Source: Thermoplasmata archaeon
GTDB lineage: Archaea > Thermoplasmatota > Thermoplasmata > Thermoplasmatales > GCA-001856825
Length of the DNA: 49,246 nucleotides
Assembly: GCA_021787125.1 (NCBI GenBank)
Contig: JAJYMI010000089.1
Location: 1 to 49,246 of the forward strand
Reading direction: 5' to 3'
Both the position numbers and the translations under genes were made by a program. The notes under the pieces are model-generated. The model worked only from the letters and a program-made list of their open reading frames with translations. It ran no database searches and was not told the origin of the DNA. This document shows positions 31,583 through 49,044 of the stretch, piece after piece (position 1 is the first letter of the stretch; every line of letters begins with the position of its first letter).

Positions 31583-31678
31583 TCAGAAATGGTCTATTAA
31601 TCATTTCTTTTAACCGTCTCTCGACGTGAGATCCGTCTCAAGATTGATAGTTTCCATGCACTCAGATACCGATTTTGA

Positions 31679-31954
31679 ATAAAACTTACAAAAACTCCTG
31701 CTTCTACGGCTTTTGAGCGGCTCAATAATCTGAAGATGCCTATTCTAGTGATTCTTGGCAGTAGGGATCTGCCCGGGTCAGTCTTGCAAGGAAAGAGAAT
31801 TCACCTACAGATACCTAGATCCGAGCCAAACCTAATCGAAGGAGCCGATCACATTCTTGGCCTTTCCAGGGCGGTAGAGTTCAACACCAAGGTTATGGAT
31901 TTCCTGAATAAAGTGGGGCGTCTGAAGACAGCGTCAGATCGACGAATTGCCTAA
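31679..31954 (+). pseudogene. C-terminal remnant of an alpha/beta-hydrolase
   Basis: Frame reads IKLTKTPASTAFERLNNLKMPILVILGSRDLPG...NLIEGADHILGLSRAVEFNTKVMDFLNKV, i.e. the C-terminal acid/His blocks of an alpha/beta hydrolase. An in-frame TGA at 31676-31678 precedes it and no N-terminal half is visible. Confidence 0.6.
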
Positions 31955-32022
31955 CGACAACTCTCCTTCCAATAGCACAGAGTGAATCTATAAGGATAAA
32001 TACCATCCATCATTGAGAGAAC

Positions 32023-32463
32023 GTGCGAGCGAAGGTAGAATGGGTAGACAATTTGACTTTTCTATCCTCTGACGACTCGGGCCACTACGCAATACTTGAT
32101 CACTCAGAAAACAAAGATTTGCAGAAGGGAAGTTCTCCGACCAATATGCTGCTTCAGGCTCTGTGTGGGTGTACGGCAATGGATGTAATATCCATACTTC
32201 AGAAAAAGAAGGAACCAGTGACTGGTCTCGAGGTCAGCGCTGAGGGTACGAGAGCTGCTGATCATCCTAAGGTATTCACTGACGTCAAGCTTGAGTACGT
32301 TGCTTATGGAAATGTAAAGAAGGAGAGCCTGGATAGAGCAGTAGCTCTAAGTCAGGAAAAATATTGCAATATCTCAATCACACTAAAGAGAGCGGGAGTG
32401 AGAGTTACCTTTTCTGCGAGGATAGTCAACGATCAATCTTCATCTGTTAATGACGCTCCGTGA
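32023..32463 (+). CDS. OsmC/Ohr-family protein
   Basis: GSSPTNMLLQALCGCTAMDVISILQKKKEPVTGLEV; CNISITL second Cys. Confidence 0.92.
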   Translation: MRAKVEWVDNLTFLSSDDSGHYAILDHSENKDLQKGSSPTNMLLQALCGCTAMDVISILQKKKEPVTGLEVSAEGTRAADHPKVFTDVKLEYVAYGNVKKESLDRAVALSQEKYCNISITLKRAGVRVTFSARIVNDQSSSVNDAP

Positions 32464-32474
32464 AATTTCTGAAT

Positions 32475-32816
32475 TCAGAAGGAAATCACTGAATAGCCTT
32501 GCTCAAGGTAGTAAGAGATCCTATCTCTATAGTTCTCCAGGGTCACTCCTTTGTCCTGAATCTCCAGAACTATGTTTTTTCTCTTGGCAATTCCCACGCA
32601 TGCAGAATCAATCACACCCGCATCTATGAGTTTTTTCAAATTTTGAGCCCTGTCACCAGTTGCCTTGGCGAGTATAGACTCGCTCTCTCCAAAAAACAGT
32701 ATCTTCAGGCTCTCAAATCTCTTCTCCTCGTCAAGTTTCATTGCGGAATATACTGCCATATCAAATCTAGTGGGTGCCTCTTCTCCGCTCATTACCAGAT
32801 AAAGAACTTTAGTCAT
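32475..32816 (-). CDS. DsrE-family protein
   Basis: DsrE-like alpha/beta layout VLYLVMSG...LKILFFGESESIL...CVGIAKRKN. Confidence 0.65.
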   Translation of the reverse strand: MTKVLYLVMSGEEAPTRFDMAVYSAMKLDEEKRFESLKILFFGESESILAKATGDRAQNLKKLIDAGVIDSACVGIAKRKNIVLEIQDKGVTLENYRDRISYYLEQGYSVISF

Positions 32817-33050
32817 ATCTGTCCAGTGAAGGGTGAAATATAATGTTGTTCAAATGGTGATGACACATCATCTCTTTCCAATGGATCTAATGAGAGACTC
32901 TCTTAGCAAAACAAGACATCTGTCACTTGTTAAGGAGGGAAACTGAACGTGGCGTTTGCAAGATATATGTGTCATTCTCACCAATTGTTGCGGGGTGCTC
33001 CCTCACTAAACGAAAAAAGTCATAGCGCTTTCACACAAACTTCCAACAAG

Positions 33051-33060
33051 TCTATATAAA
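33051..33060 (+). promoter_or_regulatory. Archaeal TATA box candidate for aIF5A
   Basis: tctatataaa about 30 bp upstream of the ATG at 33087. Confidence 0.6.
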
Positions 33061-33086
33061 GCACTATCTTTAACCTGAGATAATAA

Positions 33087-33473
33087 ATGAGCTGGCAAGA
33101 TCAAGAGGTCAGAGAGTTAAAAGAAAATAAATACATACTGATAGACGAGGAGCCTTGCAAGATAGTTGAAATCACTACATCCAAGCCTGGAAAGCATGGT
33201 GAAGCTAAAGCCAGAATCGTAGCAATTGGAATTTTCGACAATCAGAAAAGGAGCGTTGTATATCCAACCAAGCACAAGGTAAAGGTACCTATCATAGAAA
33301 AGAAGACTGCCCAGATACTGAGCATTTCACAGAGTGAGGGACTATTCATGGACATGGAAACGTTCGAACAGTTCAACATTCCGATCCCCGACGAATTCAA
33401 GGATAGGGCTGCGAGCGGAGTCGAGGTAGAGTACTGGGAGTCAATGGGAAAGAGGAAACTAATGCGAGTCTAA
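33087..33473 (+). CDS. eif5a: Translation initiation factor aIF5A
   Basis: [24 protein letters not shown] hypusination loop; [17 protein letters not shown]. Confidence 0.96.
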
Positions 33474-36972: not shown

Positions 36973-36978
36973 TATAGT

Positions 36979-37368
36979 CTACGCAACTGCCTCAGCTAAT
37001 TTTTCCTTTTGGCTGCCCCTTGGAAATTCCAAACCTCTCTCTATCCTCTTGTACTCTATACTAGTCGGTGTGAGTTTTCCTAGTATGTACTCGAGTGCAG
37101 ACTCTGCGTTCTCTGACGGACCACAAGTGAAAATATCTAGCGCTACTAGTCCGTATTCTGGCCAGGTATGAAAGCTCAGATGAGATTCAGCAAGAAGAAT
37201 GATTCCGCTCACTCCGCCTGGAGTGAATTGATGGTAATATGATCTGATTTTAGTGAGTTTTCCGTACTTGACTGCCGACTCCATTATTTCCTGCATCGTA
37301 TCTGAATTTGAAATCTTCTCAGGTTCAATTCCCTTTAGATCCCCGACAAGATGAATCCCTATTGACAC
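36979..37368 (-). CDS. speD: S-adenosylmethionine decarboxylase proenzyme
   Basis: LLAESHLSFHTWPEYGLVALDIFTCG (autoprocessing Ser). Confidence 0.94.
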   Translation of the reverse strand: MSIGIHLVGDLKGIEPEKISNSDTMQEIMESAVKYGKLTKIRSYYHQFTPGGVSGIILLAESHLSFHTWPEYGLVALDIFTCGPSENAESALEYILGKLTPTSIEYKRIERGLEFPRGSQKEKLAEAVA

Positions 37369-37400
37369 CAGCTATTCACCGATTTCTCTCAAGAAATACC

Positions 37401-37410
37401 CCTATATAAA
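37401..37410 (-). promoter_or_regulatory. Archaeal TATA box candidate for speD
   Basis: Reverse strand TTTATATAGG about 35 nt upstream of the speD ATG. Confidence 0.55.
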
Positions 37411-37574
37411 GTTTAATTTTTCGACTCTAAAGAAAATACAATAAATCATACGGTTTTGCGAATGAAATTCTGAACGAAATACCCTTTAGAAATGTAAGGT
37501 TGAAATGGAGCCTTTTTCAGATTTGAGAATTGGTGTAAATTAAATGAATGTCATCCATGATGGAGTCCCTTTGA

Positions 37575-37639
37575 TTAACCAAATTCGTATTTACATAAAA
37601 AATAAGAGTGGGACTCTTAACTTTGGTTAAAGTACGAAT
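37575..37639. repeat. Two crossing inverted repeats enclosing a perfect hairpin
   Basis: TTAACCAAA(37575-37583)/TTTGGTTAA(37622-37630); ATTCGTA(37583-37589)/TACGAAT(37633-37639); hairpin TAAGAGT-GGG... stem 37603-37609 with 37613-37619. Confidence 0.75.
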
Positions 37640-37952
37640 GGCTTGGAAAGTTGTGCTGTTGGGTGGTTGTAATCTTGTCATATTCTATCCTGAAAACCGA
37701 TTTGGATCAGGTAAGCATGGTTTGAGTCAATAAGTTATAGATCTTACCTATGGCGTGTTAGGTCAGGTTTTTGTTGTAGATGCTCTGGTTGGGTATTACT
37801 GTACTAGTAATTTGTCTGAGAAGTTGTGACAGATTTCTCCAATTGTCTCTTTATTTCTTGAAGCTGACACGTTCTTCAATCGTTGCAATTGATTGTACCT
37901 TAAGCACTATACTCTTTCCAATTTTGATTTCGTAAAACAATATCCGGTTCAG

Positions 37953-37977
37953 ATTACTCTTGAATTATAAGAGTGAT
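37953..37977. repeat. Hairpin reusing the AAGAGT/ACTCTT arm sequences
   Basis: ATTACTCTT(37953-37961) gaattat AAGAGTGAT(37969-37977), 9 bp with one G-T pair. Confidence 0.65.
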
Positions 37978-38059
37978 GCTCATCGAAGTGTATTGTCGAT
38001 AAATAGACAACAAAACGGCAAAGCCAAATGGAACACAATTCTAAAGTACCAGACTCTGA

Positions 38060-42618: not shown

Positions 42619-42705
42619 CTATTCATTATTTGCTCTTCAATACTGTAAAAAACTAACAAAATCTTTTATCCAATATTGATAATCGGTTTAGGGAGTGGAA
42701 AATGT

Positions 42706-43365
42706 ATGGTTAAGTTAACGTGGTATGGACATGCCGCATGGCAGATAGACTTTCAAGAAACGGTCGTCCTGGTTGATCCCTTTCTGAGAAACAATCCAAA
42801 ATCACCAATAAAGCCCGAGGACCTAAAAAAAATCGACTTTGTTGTTGTTACCCACAATCACGATGATCACTTGGGTGATGCGTTTGAGATCACAAAGAAT
42901 AAGGGTGCTAAACTCGTTTCGATGTTTGAGAACGTACTGCCCGCCTCGAAGGAGAACATTCCAGACGAGAATCTGATGGGAATGAACATTGGAAACCAGG
43001 TTGATTTCGGGAAGGTAAAGATCGGCCTGGTCCCTGCTGTGCACAGCGGGAACTGTGCAGGTGCAGTAATAACTGCAGATGGAGTGACAATATATCACGC
43101 TGGTGACACCGGTCTCTTCGGGGACATGAAGCTGATCGGACAAATGTACAGGCCAAAAGTCTCACTGCTGCCAACAGGTGGTTTTTTCACAATGGGACCA
43201 AAAGAAGCAGCGATGGCCGCGAGGATGATTGGATCAGAGATAGTCATTCCAATGCACTATGGGACTTTCCCACCCATAGACTCGAATCCCAATGAGCTTC
43301 GGACTGCGTTAGGAGAGGAGTTCAAGGTGCCCATTCTCAAACCTGGCGAGTCGTTCATGGTTTAG
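42706..43365 (+). CDS. UPF0173 family metal-dependent hydrolase (metallo-beta-lactamase fold)
   Basis: WYGHAAWQIDF, VVTHNHDDHLGDA, IYHAGDTGLFGDMKLIG, PMHYGTFPPID. Start taken at ATG 42706. Confidence 0.93.
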   Translation: MVKLTWYGHAAWQIDFQETVVLVDPFLRNNPKSPIKPEDLKKIDFVVVTHNHDDHLGDAFEITKNKGAKLVSMFENVLPASKENIPDENLMGMNIGNQVDFGKVKIGLVPAVHSGNCAGAVITADGVTIYHAGDTGLFGDMKLIGQMYRPKVSLLPTGGFFTMGPKEAAMAARMIGSEIVIPMHYGTFPPIDSNPNELRTALGEEFKVPILKPGESFMV

Positions 43366-43399: not shown

Positions 43400-44341
43400 G
43401 TGTCCAGCGGATACTATCTTGGTTTCGACGTCGGGGGAACAAAGATCACTGCCGTTCTGGCGTCAAGAGAAGGAAAGATAAAGAAGAGGATCGAGGCCAA
43501 GACAAGAAAATTGAAGGGGGTCACTGACCTAATAAATCAAATTCATACTCTCGGCGAACAGTTCGATAACTTCGACGACATTGGGGTGATTTTTCCAGCT
43601 CCTATCTCAAGCAAGGGGATCTCGCTTTTCGCACCGAACCTGATGGGATGGAACGAAGTTAACGTCAAAGAAAGGCTTGAAAGAGCATTTCAGAGAGATG
43701 TCTTTGTTGACAACGACGCAACCGCTCAGGCAATTTCTGTAAAGTTGTTTGATAAAGGGAGGAAATACGGGAACTTTATCTATCTCGTAGTCGGAACTGG
43801 CATCGGTGGAGGGATATTCATCGACAACAAGATCTATAGAGGCGGTAATGGCTATGCCGGTGAACTCGGTCACACGGTAATTCTGACTAATGGTCCAGTG
43901 TGTGGCTGTGGAAGAAGAGGATGTATCGAATCTCTTGCTTCCGGGCGTGCCATGGCAAGGAGAGCAACAGAGAATTCCAAAGAGATTAGAAATTCTCCAT
44001 TCTTGTCATCAATACCACTAGAGAGATTGTCGGCTGAAGACCTCTTCAGCGGCAGGGAAATGGGAGACCCTTTTTGCACCTTGCTGGTAGATGAATCAAT
44101 TTATTATCTCTCAGTCGCAATTGCAAACTACATTAACGAGTTCGATCCAGAGGCAATATTTCTAGGAGGGGGGCTCATGAAGAACGATCCGTCGTTGATT
44201 TCGGAACTTAAAGAGTCAGTCGAAAATGAGTCAGGCAAATATTCAAGAAATGTACCGATCATAAAGGTAGCAGACCGTACGGTAGAACTTGCACCAATTG
44301 CTCTTTCTGTCTACGAGTCTACCAATCACACACCTGACTGA
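43400..44341 (+). CDS. ROK-family sugar kinase (glucokinase-like)
   Basis: YLGFDVGGTKITAVLA; VDNDATAQAI; VVGTGIGGGIFID; ELGHTVI; CGCGRRGCIESLASG zinc motif. Confidence 0.9.
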   Translation: MSSGYYLGFDVGGTKITAVLASREGKIKKRIEAKTRKLKGVTDLINQIHTLGEQFDNFDDIGVIFPAPISSKGISLFAPNLMGWNEVNVKERLERAFQRDVFVDNDATAQAISVKLFDKGRKYGNFIYLVVGTGIGGGIFIDNKIYRGGNGYAGELGHTVILTNGPVCGCGRRGCIESLASGRAMARRATENSKEIRNSPFLSSIPLERLSAEDLFSGREMGDPFCTLLVDESIYYLSVAIANYINEFDPEAIFLGGGLMKNDPSLISELKESVENESGKYSRNVPIIKVADRTVELAPIALSVYESTNHTPD

Positions 44342-44414
44342 GGCCAATTTTCGATATTCAGACTGACGGTTCTTACAGCTAGCTCGGTTGAGAAATGTTT
44401 TTAGACATAGTTCA

Positions 44415-45605
44415 ATGAATATCCATATGACACGAATTAAAGATATTGAAATTATGGAACTGGGGGAGGAGGGTGAAAAATCCAGTCCATGGAGTTCTAC
44501 AATACTAGTTCTGAAGTTGGTCACAAGCGATGGAGAAATAGGTTATGGGGAAGCGCCGACCACTCTGATGACTAGACCAGTTTATGAGGAGATGAGGGAG
44601 GTCGGAAGGGTATTCTTGAACAAAGAGATCGAGGAGATAAGAAGGAATTACCTAGAGTTCTACAAGCACTCCTTTTACCTTCCAGTTTCCATGGAATCTA
44701 CCGCAGCACTGAGTGCTTTTGAAATCGCTTCTTGGGACGCAGTAGGCAAGGAATATGGTGCTCCCATCTACGATTTGCTGGGGGGGAAAGTGAGAGACAA
44801 TGTGAGGGCTTATGCAAACGGCTGGTATGATAACTGCATCTCCCCTCAAGATTTTCTCACCAAGGCGAAAGAAGTGGAACGCCTCGGATTTACGGCTGCA
44901 AAGTTCGATCCATTTGGTCCCAATTATGATAAGATAAATGGGGAAGGGGTGGGTAAAGCAAGGAAAATAATAGAGGCTCTAAAGGACCGAACAAAGCTGG
45001 ACCTGATGGTCGAATGCCATGGCAGATTTTCTGCAAATTCTGCAATCCGCGTGGCGGAGGGCATCGAGGATCTCGAACCATTTTTTGTCGAGGAACCAGT
45101 TCATCCGGATCAGTTCTCCGGACTCAAGAGGTTAAGGGAACGAACGGACGTAAGGATAGCTCTCGGTGAAAGAGTACTAAACAAGAATCTCTTTTTGCCC
45201 TATTTGACGGCAGATTTGGTCGATGTGATTCAGCCAGATGTAACGAACGTTGGAGGTATAATTCAGGGGAGAGAGTCTGCCTCACTCGCTGATTCATTTG
45301 GAGTGGAAGTGGCATATCATAATGCCTTTGGGCCCATCCAAACCGCGGCCACCCTACATCTGGACTACAACATTCCAAACTTCCTGATTCAGGAGAGTTT
45401 TGAAAAGTTTTGGCCTAAATGGAAGAAGAGTCTCGTGAAATCAGGTTACAAATTGGAGGGTGGTAATTTTACTTTGAGTGGAAAACCGGGTCTGGGTATA
45501 GAGATTGACGAAAAGGTCCTAAAAGAATACAAGACGGATAGAATTGAGCCCTTCAACCCAGATGAGCCACCGTGGGTAGTCAAAGGCACGTTCACGAAGG
45601 GATGA
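44415..45605 (+). CDS. Enolase-superfamily sugar acid dehydratase (gluconate/galactonate dehydratase-like)
   Basis: AFEIASWDAVGKEYGAPIYDLLGGKVRDNVRAYANGWY; VECHGRF; VEEPVHPDQ; ALGERV; AYHNAFGPIQTAATLHLD. Start taken at ATG 44415. Confidence 0.9.
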   Translation: MNIHMTRIKDIEIMELGEEGEKSSPWSSTILVLKLVTSDGEIGYGEAPTTLMTRPVYEEMREVGRVFLNKEIEEIRRNYLEFYKHSFYLPVSMESTAALSAFEIASWDAVGKEYGAPIYDLLGGKVRDNVRAYANGWYDNCISPQDFLTKAKEVERLGFTAAKFDPFGPNYDKINGEGVGKARKIIEALKDRTKLDLMVECHGRFSANSAIRVAEGIEDLEPFFVEEPVHPDQFSGLKRLRERTDVRIALGERVLNKNLFLPYLTADLVDVIQPDVTNVGGIIQGRESASLADSFGVEVAYHNAFGPIQTAATLHLDYNIPNFLIQESFEKFWPKWKKSLVKSGYKLEGGNFTLSGKPGLGIEIDEKVLKEYKTDRIEPFNPDEPPWVVKGTFTKG

Positions 45606-46225
45606 ATTCTTTGAAGTTTTACGACCTTTCAGTTCCAATCGCGGATGGTATGCCATATTTCAAGGGGGATCCTGTTCCTGAGATAAGGCAGTTCAGGAGA
45701 ATAGATGTTGACGGATACAACGTAAAAGAAATGAAAATTGGAACACACACAGGGACGCACCTGGATGCTCCTGCGCACTTCATTAAGAATGGGAAAACGA
45801 TAGATCGACTCGAACTGGGAGACCTGCAAGGAAGCGCTACGTGTGTTCCATATGACCCAAAGAAGGGGTTGCGACTCCCAGAGGAGCACTACGATGTCAT
45901 TTTTCTTTATACGGGATACAATAATGGATGGGGCAAGATCAAGATTTTCGAAAATTTCAGCTACATAGACAAGGAGGATGCAGAACTCCTCAAGAGCTAC
46001 GGACCAAAGCTCGTTGGAATAGACTCCCCGTCCGCTGAAGTGCAGAATTCGAAGGGGTTCGAAACACACCACATCCTGCTGGGCAGCTCAATACCCATCG
46101 TCGAAAATCTAAACTCTTTGACACTATCCTATCTGGTAAACCGTAAATTTTCAGTCCAGGTCATTCCCATTCTTGTCCAGGATGGAGATGGGGCTCCAGC
46201 CAGGGTCATTGCAATGGAGGGATAG
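45602..46225 (+). CDS. Cyclase-family (kynurenine formamidase-like) metal-dependent hydrolase
   Basis: IGTHTGTHLDAPAHFIKNGKTIDRL (HxGTHxDxPxH motif), LVGIDSPSAEV. ATG 45602 overlaps the dehydratase TGA. Confidence 0.9.
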   Translation: MNSLKFYDLSVPIADGMPYFKGDPVPEIRQFRRIDVDGYNVKEMKIGTHTGTHLDAPAHFIKNGKTIDRLELGDLQGSATCVPYDPKKGLRLPEEHYDVIFLYTGYNNGWGKIKIFENFSYIDKEDAELLKSYGPKLVGIDSPSAEVQNSKGFETHHILLGSSIPIVENLNSLTLSYLVNRKFSVQVIPILVQDGDGAPARVIAMEG

Positions 46226-46227
46226 AT

Positions 46228-47295
46228 TTGAAAGCGATCACTACTATTCCGCCGGGAGGCGGTGTCAAACTCTCTCAAGTAAGTCTAGAAAATACAAAGG
46301 GGGTCAGAGTCAAGACATACCGCACAGGCATATGCGGGACGGATAAGGAAATAGCACAGGGAAAATTGACCTTTGCGAGGCCAGAAATTGGGAGCTCTCT
46401 TGTCATGGGACACGAAGCTGTTGGAATCATAGCCGAATCTGTCGAAGATTCCACTTTCAAGGAGGGAGACATTGTGGTACCTATGGTCAGGCGACCAGGA
46501 GGGTGTAGAATGTGCAGATTAGGACGACAGGACTACTGTGAGGACGGTGACTTCGTTGAAGCCGGAATAAGAGGCAAGAATGGTTTCATGAGAGAGGAGT
46601 TCATCGATGATCCTAGATTCCTGGTGAAGGTAGATAACCCCTCGATCCGAGACCTGGCAGTCCTAACCGAGCCGTTAAAAAACGTAATGAAGATGGAAGA
46701 GACTTTCCAGTTCCTCAGAACTAGAATACCTTGGTACTGCGAAGATTCGACGCTTTCGTGTAAGAATATGTATGTTTTTGGAACCGGAACGGAGGGTCTG
46801 TTGATATCGATCGTCTTCAAGTCACTGGGTATGAATGTCGTTGCGGTCAACAGGCATCCTCTTAGTGAGAACGTAATGGATTTCCTTGATAGGAACAGGA
46901 TAGATTATCTCGATACCTCATCAGAGAAACTCGACGCCAAGGTCAAAGACCTACCAATGGATGCAGCCATCGATGCAGTGGGAGCGATGGATGTTTTGAA
47001 AGAGATAACGGACAACGTAAGTAACAACGGGATTGCGATAATGTTCGGTACGAGTGGCCAGCTTCCTTCTCACAACTTTGACGTGTTGGAACGAATAGTT
47101 GATAGAAATATAGTAGTGGTCGGTAGCGTCGATGGTGCTAAGAACCACTATGCAGAGGCAATTGATTTCATAGAGACTCACGGAAAGGCAATGCAGATGG
47201 ACAGGATCATCACAGGAAAATATCAACCGGAGGAGCTGAATATATTTACAGAGAAGGAAAAAGGGGAGATAAAAAAAGTAATAGCTTGGTCGTGA
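46228..47295 (+). CDS. gdh: Glucose 1-dehydrogenase (zinc-dependent MDR family, archaeal)
   Basis: YRTGICGTDKEIAQGKL, VMGHEAVGII, GGCRMCRLGRQDYC, LTEPLKNVMKM, VVAVNRHPL. Confidence 0.9.
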   Translation: MKAITTIPPGGGVKLSQVSLENTKGVRVKTYRTGICGTDKEIAQGKLTFARPEIGSSLVMGHEAVGIIAESVEDSTFKEGDIVVPMVRRPGGCRMCRLGRQDYCEDGDFVEAGIRGKNGFMREEFIDDPRFLVKVDNPSIRDLAVLTEPLKNVMKMEETFQFLRTRIPWYCEDSTLSCKNMYVFGTGTEGLLISIVFKSLGMNVVAVNRHPLSENVMDFLDRNRIDYLDTSSEKLDAKVKDLPMDAAIDAVGAMDVLKEITDNVSNNGIAIMFGTSGQLPSHNFDVLERIVDRNIVVVGSVDGAKNHYAEAIDFIETHGKAMQMDRIITGKYQPEELNIFTEKEKGEIKKVIAWS

Positions 47296-47317
47296 TTCAC
47301 TCTCCAGGAGCTAAAGC

Positions 47318-48496
47318 TTGAAGAGTGGTCTTCGAAACATCTACATCTACACTTTCTTTTACTCATTTCTCCTCCTAAATCCAATCTGGGTATTGTACCT
47401 CTTAAATTTGGGGTATAGCATTTTTTATGTGACCATACTAGACGTGGTATTCTATATCACAATCGTCTTGGCCAGCATTCCTATGGGTAGAATCACCGAC
47501 TCCATAGGAAGAAGAAATGCACTCTTCATATCCTCAATTCTGACGGGCATCGGGATAATATTCTTCGGCCTGTTTCAGTCGTTTCTTGGCATTGCCATCA
47601 GCTATGCGGTCTGGGGAATAGGTGTGGCGATAAACAACAGTGCTCTAGAGAGTGTCAGTTTCGAATACTCCAAGTCCCACGATTTGAGATACCTCCAGCT
47701 CATCGGTATGGTCAATTTTATTTCTGCAGTATCAGTTGCGGTGGCGTCGCTTCTTGGGGGGTACATGGGGGAATACACGGGACTTCGGATCGTGGTATTT
47801 GCCACAGGAGTGATGGTCCTGCTTTCCTCTTTCTATACACTCAAACTGAGAGAGAGAAAGAGGGAAAATGCCCATGGTACCTTGGTTCTAAAACTCGGAA
47901 ATTATGTAAGAGATAGGAGGATCATGAGCATAATTCTGCTTCGAGTTGCACTCTTACTGAACTTCAACATGATGATCATATTCAAACAGCCCTACTACAA
48001 AGAAATGGGGATAGGGACCGGGTTGATAGGAGTGATTTTCTTCGCAGATGTTCTCCTGAGGGGACTGGCGTCGCTCAGCACACAAAGGCTCGCATTCATC
48101 GCAAAGAACAGGTTTTTTGCTATGCTTCTTTTCACTTCCCTTACCTTCTTCACGATATACATCCCGGGTTTAGTTGAGAATCTCGCATCGTTGGCTTTCC
48201 TGATACTCAATTCGATAATATTTGGTTTCTATTCGAACATCCTGAGCGAGGAGGTAAACGTCATGGTTCCCTCAGAAGTGAGGGCTACGGTGCTATCCGT
48301 AATTTTCCTCGTCAGCGCACTCTTTACTGCCCTTGCAGAGCCTTTTCTGGGTTATTCGGCTTCAGTTATAGGCTTGGAAAAGACTCTCCTGATCTTCAGT
48401 GCAATATTTCTGATAATCTCAACGGCAGCAATATTTATTCATATACTTGGCAGGGAGAACAGTAACTTCAAGCTGGTCTCGACCAATGATAGATAG
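47318..48496 (+). CDS. MFS transporter
   Basis: About 12 TM segments; loop 2-3 motif PMGRITDSIGRRNALFIS. Confidence 0.9.
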   Translation: MKSGLRNIYIYTFFYSFLLLNPIWVLYLLNLGYSIFYVTILDVVFYITIVLASIPMGRITDSIGRRNALFISSILTGIGIIFFGLFQSFLGIAISYAVWGIGVAINNSALESVSFEYSKSHDLRYLQLIGMVNFISAVSVAVASLLGGYMGEYTGLRIVVFATGVMVLLSSFYTLKLRERKRENAHGTLVLKLGNYVRDRRIMSIILLRVALLLNFNMMIIFKQPYYKEMGIGTGLIGVIFFADVLLRGLASLSTQRLAFIAKNRFFAMLLFTSLTFFTIYIPGLVENLASLAFLILNSIIFGFYSNILSEEVNVMVPSEVRATVLSVIFLVSALFTALAEPFLGYSASVIGLEKTLLIFSAIFLIISTAAIFIHILGRENSNFKLVSTNDR

Positions 48497-48507
48497 GTTC
48501 GAACCTA
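48494..48507. repeat. 14-bp perfect palindrome TAGGTTCGAACCTA containing both convergent stop codons
   Basis: TAG (48494-48496) is the MFS stop; CTA (48505-48507) is the complement of the DUF309 stop. Confidence 0.75.
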
Positions 48508-49044
48508 GGCCAGTGAATGAGAAATTTCCCGGAGTTCGTTCAAGATAGAGGAGCTAAGTGGATAGGAGAATTTCCAACTCAGCGCACCATCCACGAAATG
48601 TGCGATTTCCCTTCTTGCATCCCCGAATATTCTCTCCGCATTCGCTTGATGGTCCATTTGAAAGTGAACCATCGATACGCAGAGCAAGACGATTCCGTGA
48701 AAGAATTTACTCCTGTCGTCCTTGTAGTGTTTCCAGTAATCTTCGAATATCTCATGCCCGATCCAGTACTTCTCTTCGCTCATAGAGTGGAATCCTTCAT
48801 TGATGCCCTTCATTATTTCCTCTGTGCTATTCAGCGGGAGGGGTTCTCCCCGATTGAATATGCACAACTCACCAATGTCGCAGACTTCGGAGATGTACTC
48901 TAAACCAGAATCCAAGTCCGTAAATCTAAGGTCCACCTCCAGAGTGCTGACTCCACATCTAAAGATCTTGAACCGGTTTGGCTTAAACCTGTCTTTATCA
49001 AGGTTGTTGGTGAATAGAAGAATTCTGACTCTCCAGTCGAGCAC
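48505..49044 (-). CDS. DUF309-domain protein
   Basis: INEGFHSMSEEKYWIGHEIFEDYWKHYKDDRSKFFHGIVLLCVSMVHFQMDHQANAERIF matches the DUF309 H-E-x-W-E pattern. Confidence 0.75.
   Translation of the reverse strand: MLDWRVRILLFTNNLDKDRFKPNRFKIFRCGVSTLEVDLRFTDLDSGLEYISEVCDIGELCIFNRGEPLPLNSTEEIMKGINEGFHSMSEEKYWIGHEIFEDYWKHYKDDRSKFFHGIVLLCVSMVHFQMDHQANAERIFGDARREIAHFVDGALSWKFSYPLSSSILNELREISHSLA

Follow-up and report, generated by a model that had tools for sequence, protein, structure and literature searches.

A candidate PF04199-family aldono-1,5-lactonase encoded between dehydratase and glucose dehydrogenase genes in Thermoplasmata

The lactone step in archaeal sugar oxidation is often taken as spontaneous or left unassigned. 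In Thermoplasma and Picrophilus, the non-phosphorylative Entner-Doudoroff pathway uses a glucose dehydrogenase and a gluconate dehydratase, and enzymes of the same families are encoded in the DNA analyzed here, a stretch of 49,246 nt (the window) from a Thermoplasmata archaeon (contig JAJYMI010000089.1, assembly GCA_021787125.1). In the window, the genes for an enolase-superfamily gluconate/galactonate dehydratase (DHT) and a glucose 1-dehydrogenase (GDH) enclose a third gene, CYC, that encodes a cyclase-family metal-dependent hydrolase of the PF04199 family. Thermoplasma and Picrophilus presumably belong to a family like f6 of our genome set, in which the DHT and GDH genes are mostly unlinked and a CYC orthologue is missing, whereas the window has all three side by side, CYC being the candidate lactonase. 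Beta-propeller proteins of the SMP-30 family (PF08450), such as the gluconolactonase of Xanthomonas and the xylonolactonase of Caulobacter, use a metal to open the aldonolactones formed by an aldose dehydrogenase, and this is the reaction proposed here for CYC. The pentose cluster of Sulfolobus solfataricus, as reviewed in PMC9795676, is without an aldonolactonase.

We propose that CYC is probably a metal-dependent aldono-1,5-lactonase of the non-phosphorylative Entner-Doudoroff pathway, non-homologous to SMP-30. The reconstructed pathway would include four steps: (i) GDH would oxidize D-glucose, and possibly D-galactose, to the 1,5-lactone, (ii) water activated at the HxxxHxDxxxH...H...E metal site of CYC would hydrolyze the lactone ester, (iii) DHT would dehydrate the aldonate to 2-keto-3-deoxygluconate (KDG), and (iv) an aldolase of the DHDPS family would split KDG into pyruvate and glyceraldehyde. 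An earlier note on this DNA had suggested that the hydrolase between the dehydratase and GDH may open gluconolactone or a related aldonolactone; conserved gene order argues for such an activity.

The gene cluster and its conservation in Thermoplasmata

The genes of the cluster are presumably co-transcribed. DHT (44427..45605, + strand) matches PF13378 (E 3e-57), and its best NCBIfam model is NF040790, gluconate/galactonate dehydratase (E 3.5e-173). The longest open reading frame starts at an in-frame TTG at 44388, upstream of the ATG at 44427; the latter is the more likely start, because most relatives start there. CYC (45602..46225, + strand) overlaps the stop of DHT by exactly 4 nt (ATGA, 45602..45605), just as the earlier note had read it, and its own stop lies 2 nt before the TTG start of GDH (46228..47295, + strand). 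GDH belongs to the medium-chain zinc type (PF16912, E 7.1e-21); its nearest match in PDB is the glucose dehydrogenase of Thermoplasma volcanium (3wic, E 1.2e-76), and it also matches the Sulfolobus enzyme (2cd9, E 2.2e-67). Both the glucose dehydrogenase and the gluconate dehydratase of the non-phosphorylative Entner-Doudoroff pathway are, therefore, present in the cluster.

Orthologues of the three genes were searched in 121 genomes, among which the window is contig C2 of G000, a genome that is 83% complete. When the adjacency of the dehydratase, hydrolase and GDH genes was checked across Thermoplasmata, as the earlier note had advised, the order DHT-CYC-GDH was found to be retained in 13 relatives from four genera and two families, namely nine congeners, one member of g2, two members of g3, and a single representative of family f3, and this retention indicates that the arrangement is more than chance. 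A further f3 genome (L017/L147) has a rearranged but still clustered locus, with CYC-GDH inverted relative to DHT and adjacent to it. Across the syntenic relatives, identity ranges from 43 to 75% for the cyclase, the f3 member being at 43%, and from 48 to 88% for DHT. Outside family f6, a CYC orthologue is present if and only if the DHT and GDH orthologues are present: 15 genomes carry all three genes, and all three are absent from G013, G015, G018, G023, G026, G029, and the f4 genomes. The lone exception is G004, where the cluster is broken by a contig end and DHT is incomplete.

The flanking genes are less conserved. Upstream of the cluster are genes for a UPF0173/UlaG-like metallo-beta-lactamase-fold (MBL) protein (42676-43365) and, directly after it, a ROK-family sugar kinase (43400..44341, + strand; PF00480, E 2e-61; zinc signature CGCGRRGCIES in the sequence), whereas downstream is a gene for an MFS transporter, a possible sugar permease (47318..48496, + strand; PF07690, E 6.1e-25). 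All five open reading frames from the kinase to the transporter (43400-48496) lie on the + strand, so the co-directional layout described in the earlier note holds. The kinase and MBL genes upstream and the transporter gene downstream are kept in family f1 (genera g1-g3), and the kinase and MBL genes are missing from the f3 loci. Since these three neighbors accompany the cluster only within f1, the conserved core is DHT-CYC-GDH.

In family f3, a DHDPS-family aldolase gene lies beside the cluster in place of the f1 neighbors. The genome of the window encodes a protein of this family at G000:C84:9469-10296 that is 45% identical (E 5.5e-76) to the aldolase-like neighbor of the L146 cluster, and this protein is a putative KDG aldolase by sequence similarity. 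The L147 neighborhood contains genes for an aldehyde dehydrogenase, two GH15 proteins, a glycogen debranching enzyme, a GH57 protein, and a glycosyltransferase; the GH15, debranching enzyme and GH57 genes around CYC point to glucan-derived glucose as the source.

Family, predicted active site and fold of CYC

The CYC protein (207 aa) matches PF04199 with E 1.4e-19 (71.2 bits versus a cut-off of 23.1); this is the sole family matched, and PF08450 is not. Its motif H49-T-G-T-H53-L-D55-A-P-A-H59 fits the HxGTHxDxPxH pattern, and residues H49, H53, D55, H59, H156, and E168 are invariant in all 15 CYC orthologues. These residues correspond to H50, H54, D56, H60, H161, and E173 of the arylformamidase KynB, which build a two-zinc site and activate water (PMC4243253). 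The AlphaFold2 model of CYC has a pLDDT of 93.5, and its best matches in PDB are KynB (TM 0.79-0.82), MJ0783, a manganese hydrolase, and isatin hydrolase. All 34 PDB matches at E <= 0.001 are PF04199-type hydrolases by description or by known family, in agreement with a beta-barrel fold of the KynB type. The metal site is, thus, predicted from sequence and fold matching.

Two positions deviate from KynB. The KynB pocket residue Trp20 is replaced by Phe20 in CYC, as in every orthologue but one, which has Tyr, and Phe was a permitted substitution at this position in the KynB survey (PMC4243253). The position of KynB Asp151 is occupied by Glu146, which is invariant among the orthologues. Hydrolysis of oxygen esters has precedents in the family: the PF04199 esterase MGS0169 is at least 1000-fold better on pNP-acetate (pNP, p-nitrophenyl) than on isatin, and PF04199 also includes trans-dienelactone hydrolase (PMC5341072). 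Given these ester and lactone precedents, opening of glucono-1,5-lactone would fall within the known chemistry of the family.

Homologues in other lineages and the wider genomic context

Scanning of the GTDB species genomes with the alignment of CYC orthologues yielded 80 cyclase loci, four of which are from Thermoplasmata with the same cluster. Five other archaeal loci (L040, L046, L051, L053, and L079, the last one titled Nitrososphaerota) encode CYC, a DHDPS-family aldolase, DHT, and a PF16912 GDH, together with an aldehyde dehydrogenase and, on the opposite strand, a glycerate kinase. The best NCBIfam model for the aldehyde dehydrogenase of these clusters is D-glyceraldehyde dehydrogenase (model scans on L079), and the DHT proteins of this group are 48-50% identical to that of the window. 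The gene order CYC-KDG aldolase-DHT is kept in 13 Nitrososphaerota-type genomes. In the full Nitrososphaerota-type clusters, each reaction that starts from glucose has its enzyme apart from the lactone opening, and this step is, therefore, left for CYC.

Other loci preserve different parts of the same context. In L151:1862-9820, CYC is accompanied by DHT, glycerate kinase, glyceraldehyde dehydrogenase, pyruvate kinase, and enolase; nearly the entire route from gluconate to pyruvate is encoded at this one site. The Nitrososphaerota-type locus L153:1708-7165 encodes, in this order, a GH15 protein, GDH, an IlvD/Edd-type dehydratase, and CYC. Since this dehydratase is from an unrelated family and has the same CYC neighbor, the cyclase tracks the reaction rather than one dehydratase family. 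Four Chloroflexi loci (L078:2935-6633, L044, L052, and L055) carry a gene for GDH, then one for an archaeal-type glycogen debranching enzyme, then CYC, and the L078 set includes an overlap of 4 nt; no dehydratase was detected within these loci, which form an apparent glycogen-to-gluconate cluster. In L050, a GDH-like gene is convergent on CYC. No convincing GDH was found in the remaining loci of the 80, with a single weak match of 51 bits in L109. CYC is, thus, linked across lineages with genes for an aldose 1-dehydrogenase and a dehydratase of sugar acids, and the recurrence of this linkage in Nitrososphaerota-type archaea and in Chloroflexi, once beside a non-homologous dehydratase, was not foreseen by the earlier note and strengthens the lactonase assignment.

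In the midpoint-rooted tree of 135 cyclases, the sugar-linked proteins fall into separate clades: Thermoplasmata with two Marsarchaeota proteins (SH-aLRT 99), Nitrososphaerota (99), and Chloroflexi (100), plus single rows. The sugar-context label changes seven times on the tree, and the mean after shuffling is 34 changes; this mean refers to the complementary "other" group, the sole difference being that one Marsarchaeota row is counted apart. Such a tree is compatible both with a single ancient sugar association and with several. On balance, we favor the view that this PF04199 subgroup represents gluconolactonases without homology to SMP-30, working in the non-phosphorylative Entner-Doudoroff pathway in Thermoplasmata and Nitrososphaerota-type archaea and in the conversion of glucan to gluconate in Chloroflexi. 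Specificity for sugar lactones would then have arisen repeatedly in PF04199 or be an old trait of this part of the family.

The genome of the window encodes a second PF04199 protein (G000:C51:16496-17125; L001). This KynB-like paralogue was rejected as the same gene as CYC, as it groups with the f6 cyclases in a different, starred clade.

Elsewhere in the window, a gene for a DUF309 protein (48505-49044, opposite strand) is convergent with the MFS transporter gene. At the other end, the gene at 267-1436 looks, by its translation, like an epimerase of the sulfoquinovose synthase (SQD1/Agl3) type, and a putative sugar nucleotidyltransferase gene (1425-2192), read in the same way, is convergent with it. 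The intervals 31583-33473 and 36973-38059 contain no open reading frame of at least 150 aa, no tRNA, and no Rfam match.

Alternative explanations and comparison with known systems

Several observations weigh against the proposed role of CYC. DHT scores 576 bits with NF040790, under the cut-off of 750 bits. No clear glyceraldehyde dehydrogenase or glycerate kinase was found in the 83%-complete G000; congeners carry both, with NF040792 above the cut-off in G001, G003, G004, G007, G011, and G016 and glycerate kinase matches in most congeners. The two Marsarchaeota homologues in the clade of the window are without GDH next to CYC. The Nitrososphaerota-type genome L046, which has the cluster, also encodes SMP-30 elsewhere. 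The distribution of SMP-30 among the 121 genomes, on the other hand, argues for the proposed role: it is confined to family f6 (26 genomes with E < 1e-50), and no PF08450 match was found in G000 or in the relatives that carry DHT-CYC-GDH. Many f6 genomes have DHT and GDH and neither a CYC orthologue nor SMP-30; hence, not every genome strictly needs a lactonase of its own, which weakens the claim in its strongest version, and the lactone in these genomes may be opened spontaneously or by some other enzyme. The earlier note had argued that a lactonase matters in acidophiles, as lactones hydrolyze slowly in acid. This rationale is plausible and not specifically supported: the titles of the Chloroflexi metagenome-assembled genomes point to a soil core sampled by depth and not to an acidic site, and it is further weakened by the many Thermoplasmata relatives in which DHT and GDH occur without CYC or SMP-30.

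The f6 genomes that manage without the CYC gene are also consistent with CYC being a passenger in an inherited neighborhood, the lactone being opened spontaneously, which is faster in heat (PMC9795676), or by another enzyme, such as the MBL-fold protein encoded upstream. We consider this quite unlikely, as the association of CYC with sugar oxidation recurs in separate clades, includes a non-homologous dehydratase, and outlasts rearrangement. The MBL-fold protein was rejected as a dedicated lactonase: it is absent from the f3 clusters and was matched in 45 of the 46 genomes searched, some of them without the pathway, and thus looks like a housekeeping protein. Synteny by itself places CYC in the glucose pathway and not at a given step, so that CYC might have another job there, for instance, interconversion of sugar anomers for GDH or hydrolysis of damaged or side-product sugar esters; the Chloroflexi loci, where CYC is linked to GDH and the debranching enzyme in the apparent absence of a dehydratase, would agree with such a function. 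It is nevertheless unlikely, given that CYC retains the full metal-hydrolase site, that all remaining steps have enzymes in the full clusters, and that the known chemistry of the family is hydrolysis (PMC5341072, PMC4243253).

We regard it as very unlikely that CYC is a formamidase or cyclic amide hydrolase, akin to kynurenine formamidase or isatin hydrolase, that acts on an unrelated substrate in vivo. The best NCBIfam match of CYC is indeed the arylformamidase model TIGR03035 (E 4.6e-23), and KynB is the nearest fold and shares its six metal and catalytic residues. However, CYC scores 82.3 bits with this model, far below the cut-off of 223, and a profile search for tryptophan 2,3-dioxygenase (PF03301) gave no hits above the cut-off in any of the 121 genomes; on these grounds, the kynurenine formamidase role was rejected, and activity on N-formylkynurenine, named in the earlier note as an outcome that would speak against a lactonase, is disfavored. 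CYC is repeatedly found beside glucose oxidation genes, and no association with tryptophan genes was seen.

We found no earlier report of a PF04199 sugar lactonase in the open-licence literature. A PF04199 hydrolase acting as an aldonolactonase is an extension of a known family and not a new kind of enzyme. If the assignment is true, it would supply the missing lactonase in several lineages of archaea and bacteria and would correct misleading arylformamidase or cyclase labels, for example, kynurenine formamidase in organisms without tryptophan dioxygenase.

Comparison of CYC with the described enzymes reveals both common and distinct features. KynB (TIGR03035; PDB 4co9, 4cog, and 4cob) has the same fold, metal and catalytic residues, and length, but the two proteins are only 22-25% identical in the fold comparison, CYC is far under the equivalog cut-off, and the Trp20 and Asp151 positions differ. 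The trans-dienelactone hydrolase of Pseudomonas reinekei MT1 and MGS0169 are metal-dependent PF04199 enzymes that hydrolyze oxygen esters or lactones; their motif, however, is Q-x3-Q-x-D-x3-H rather than the H-x3-H-x-D-x3-H of CYC, and their substrates are not sugar lactones (PMC5341072). SMP-30 proteins catalyze the reaction proposed for CYC and are unrelated to it in both fold and sequence, so that PF04199 and SMP-30 would provide a clear additional case of non-homologous enzymes sharing one reaction.

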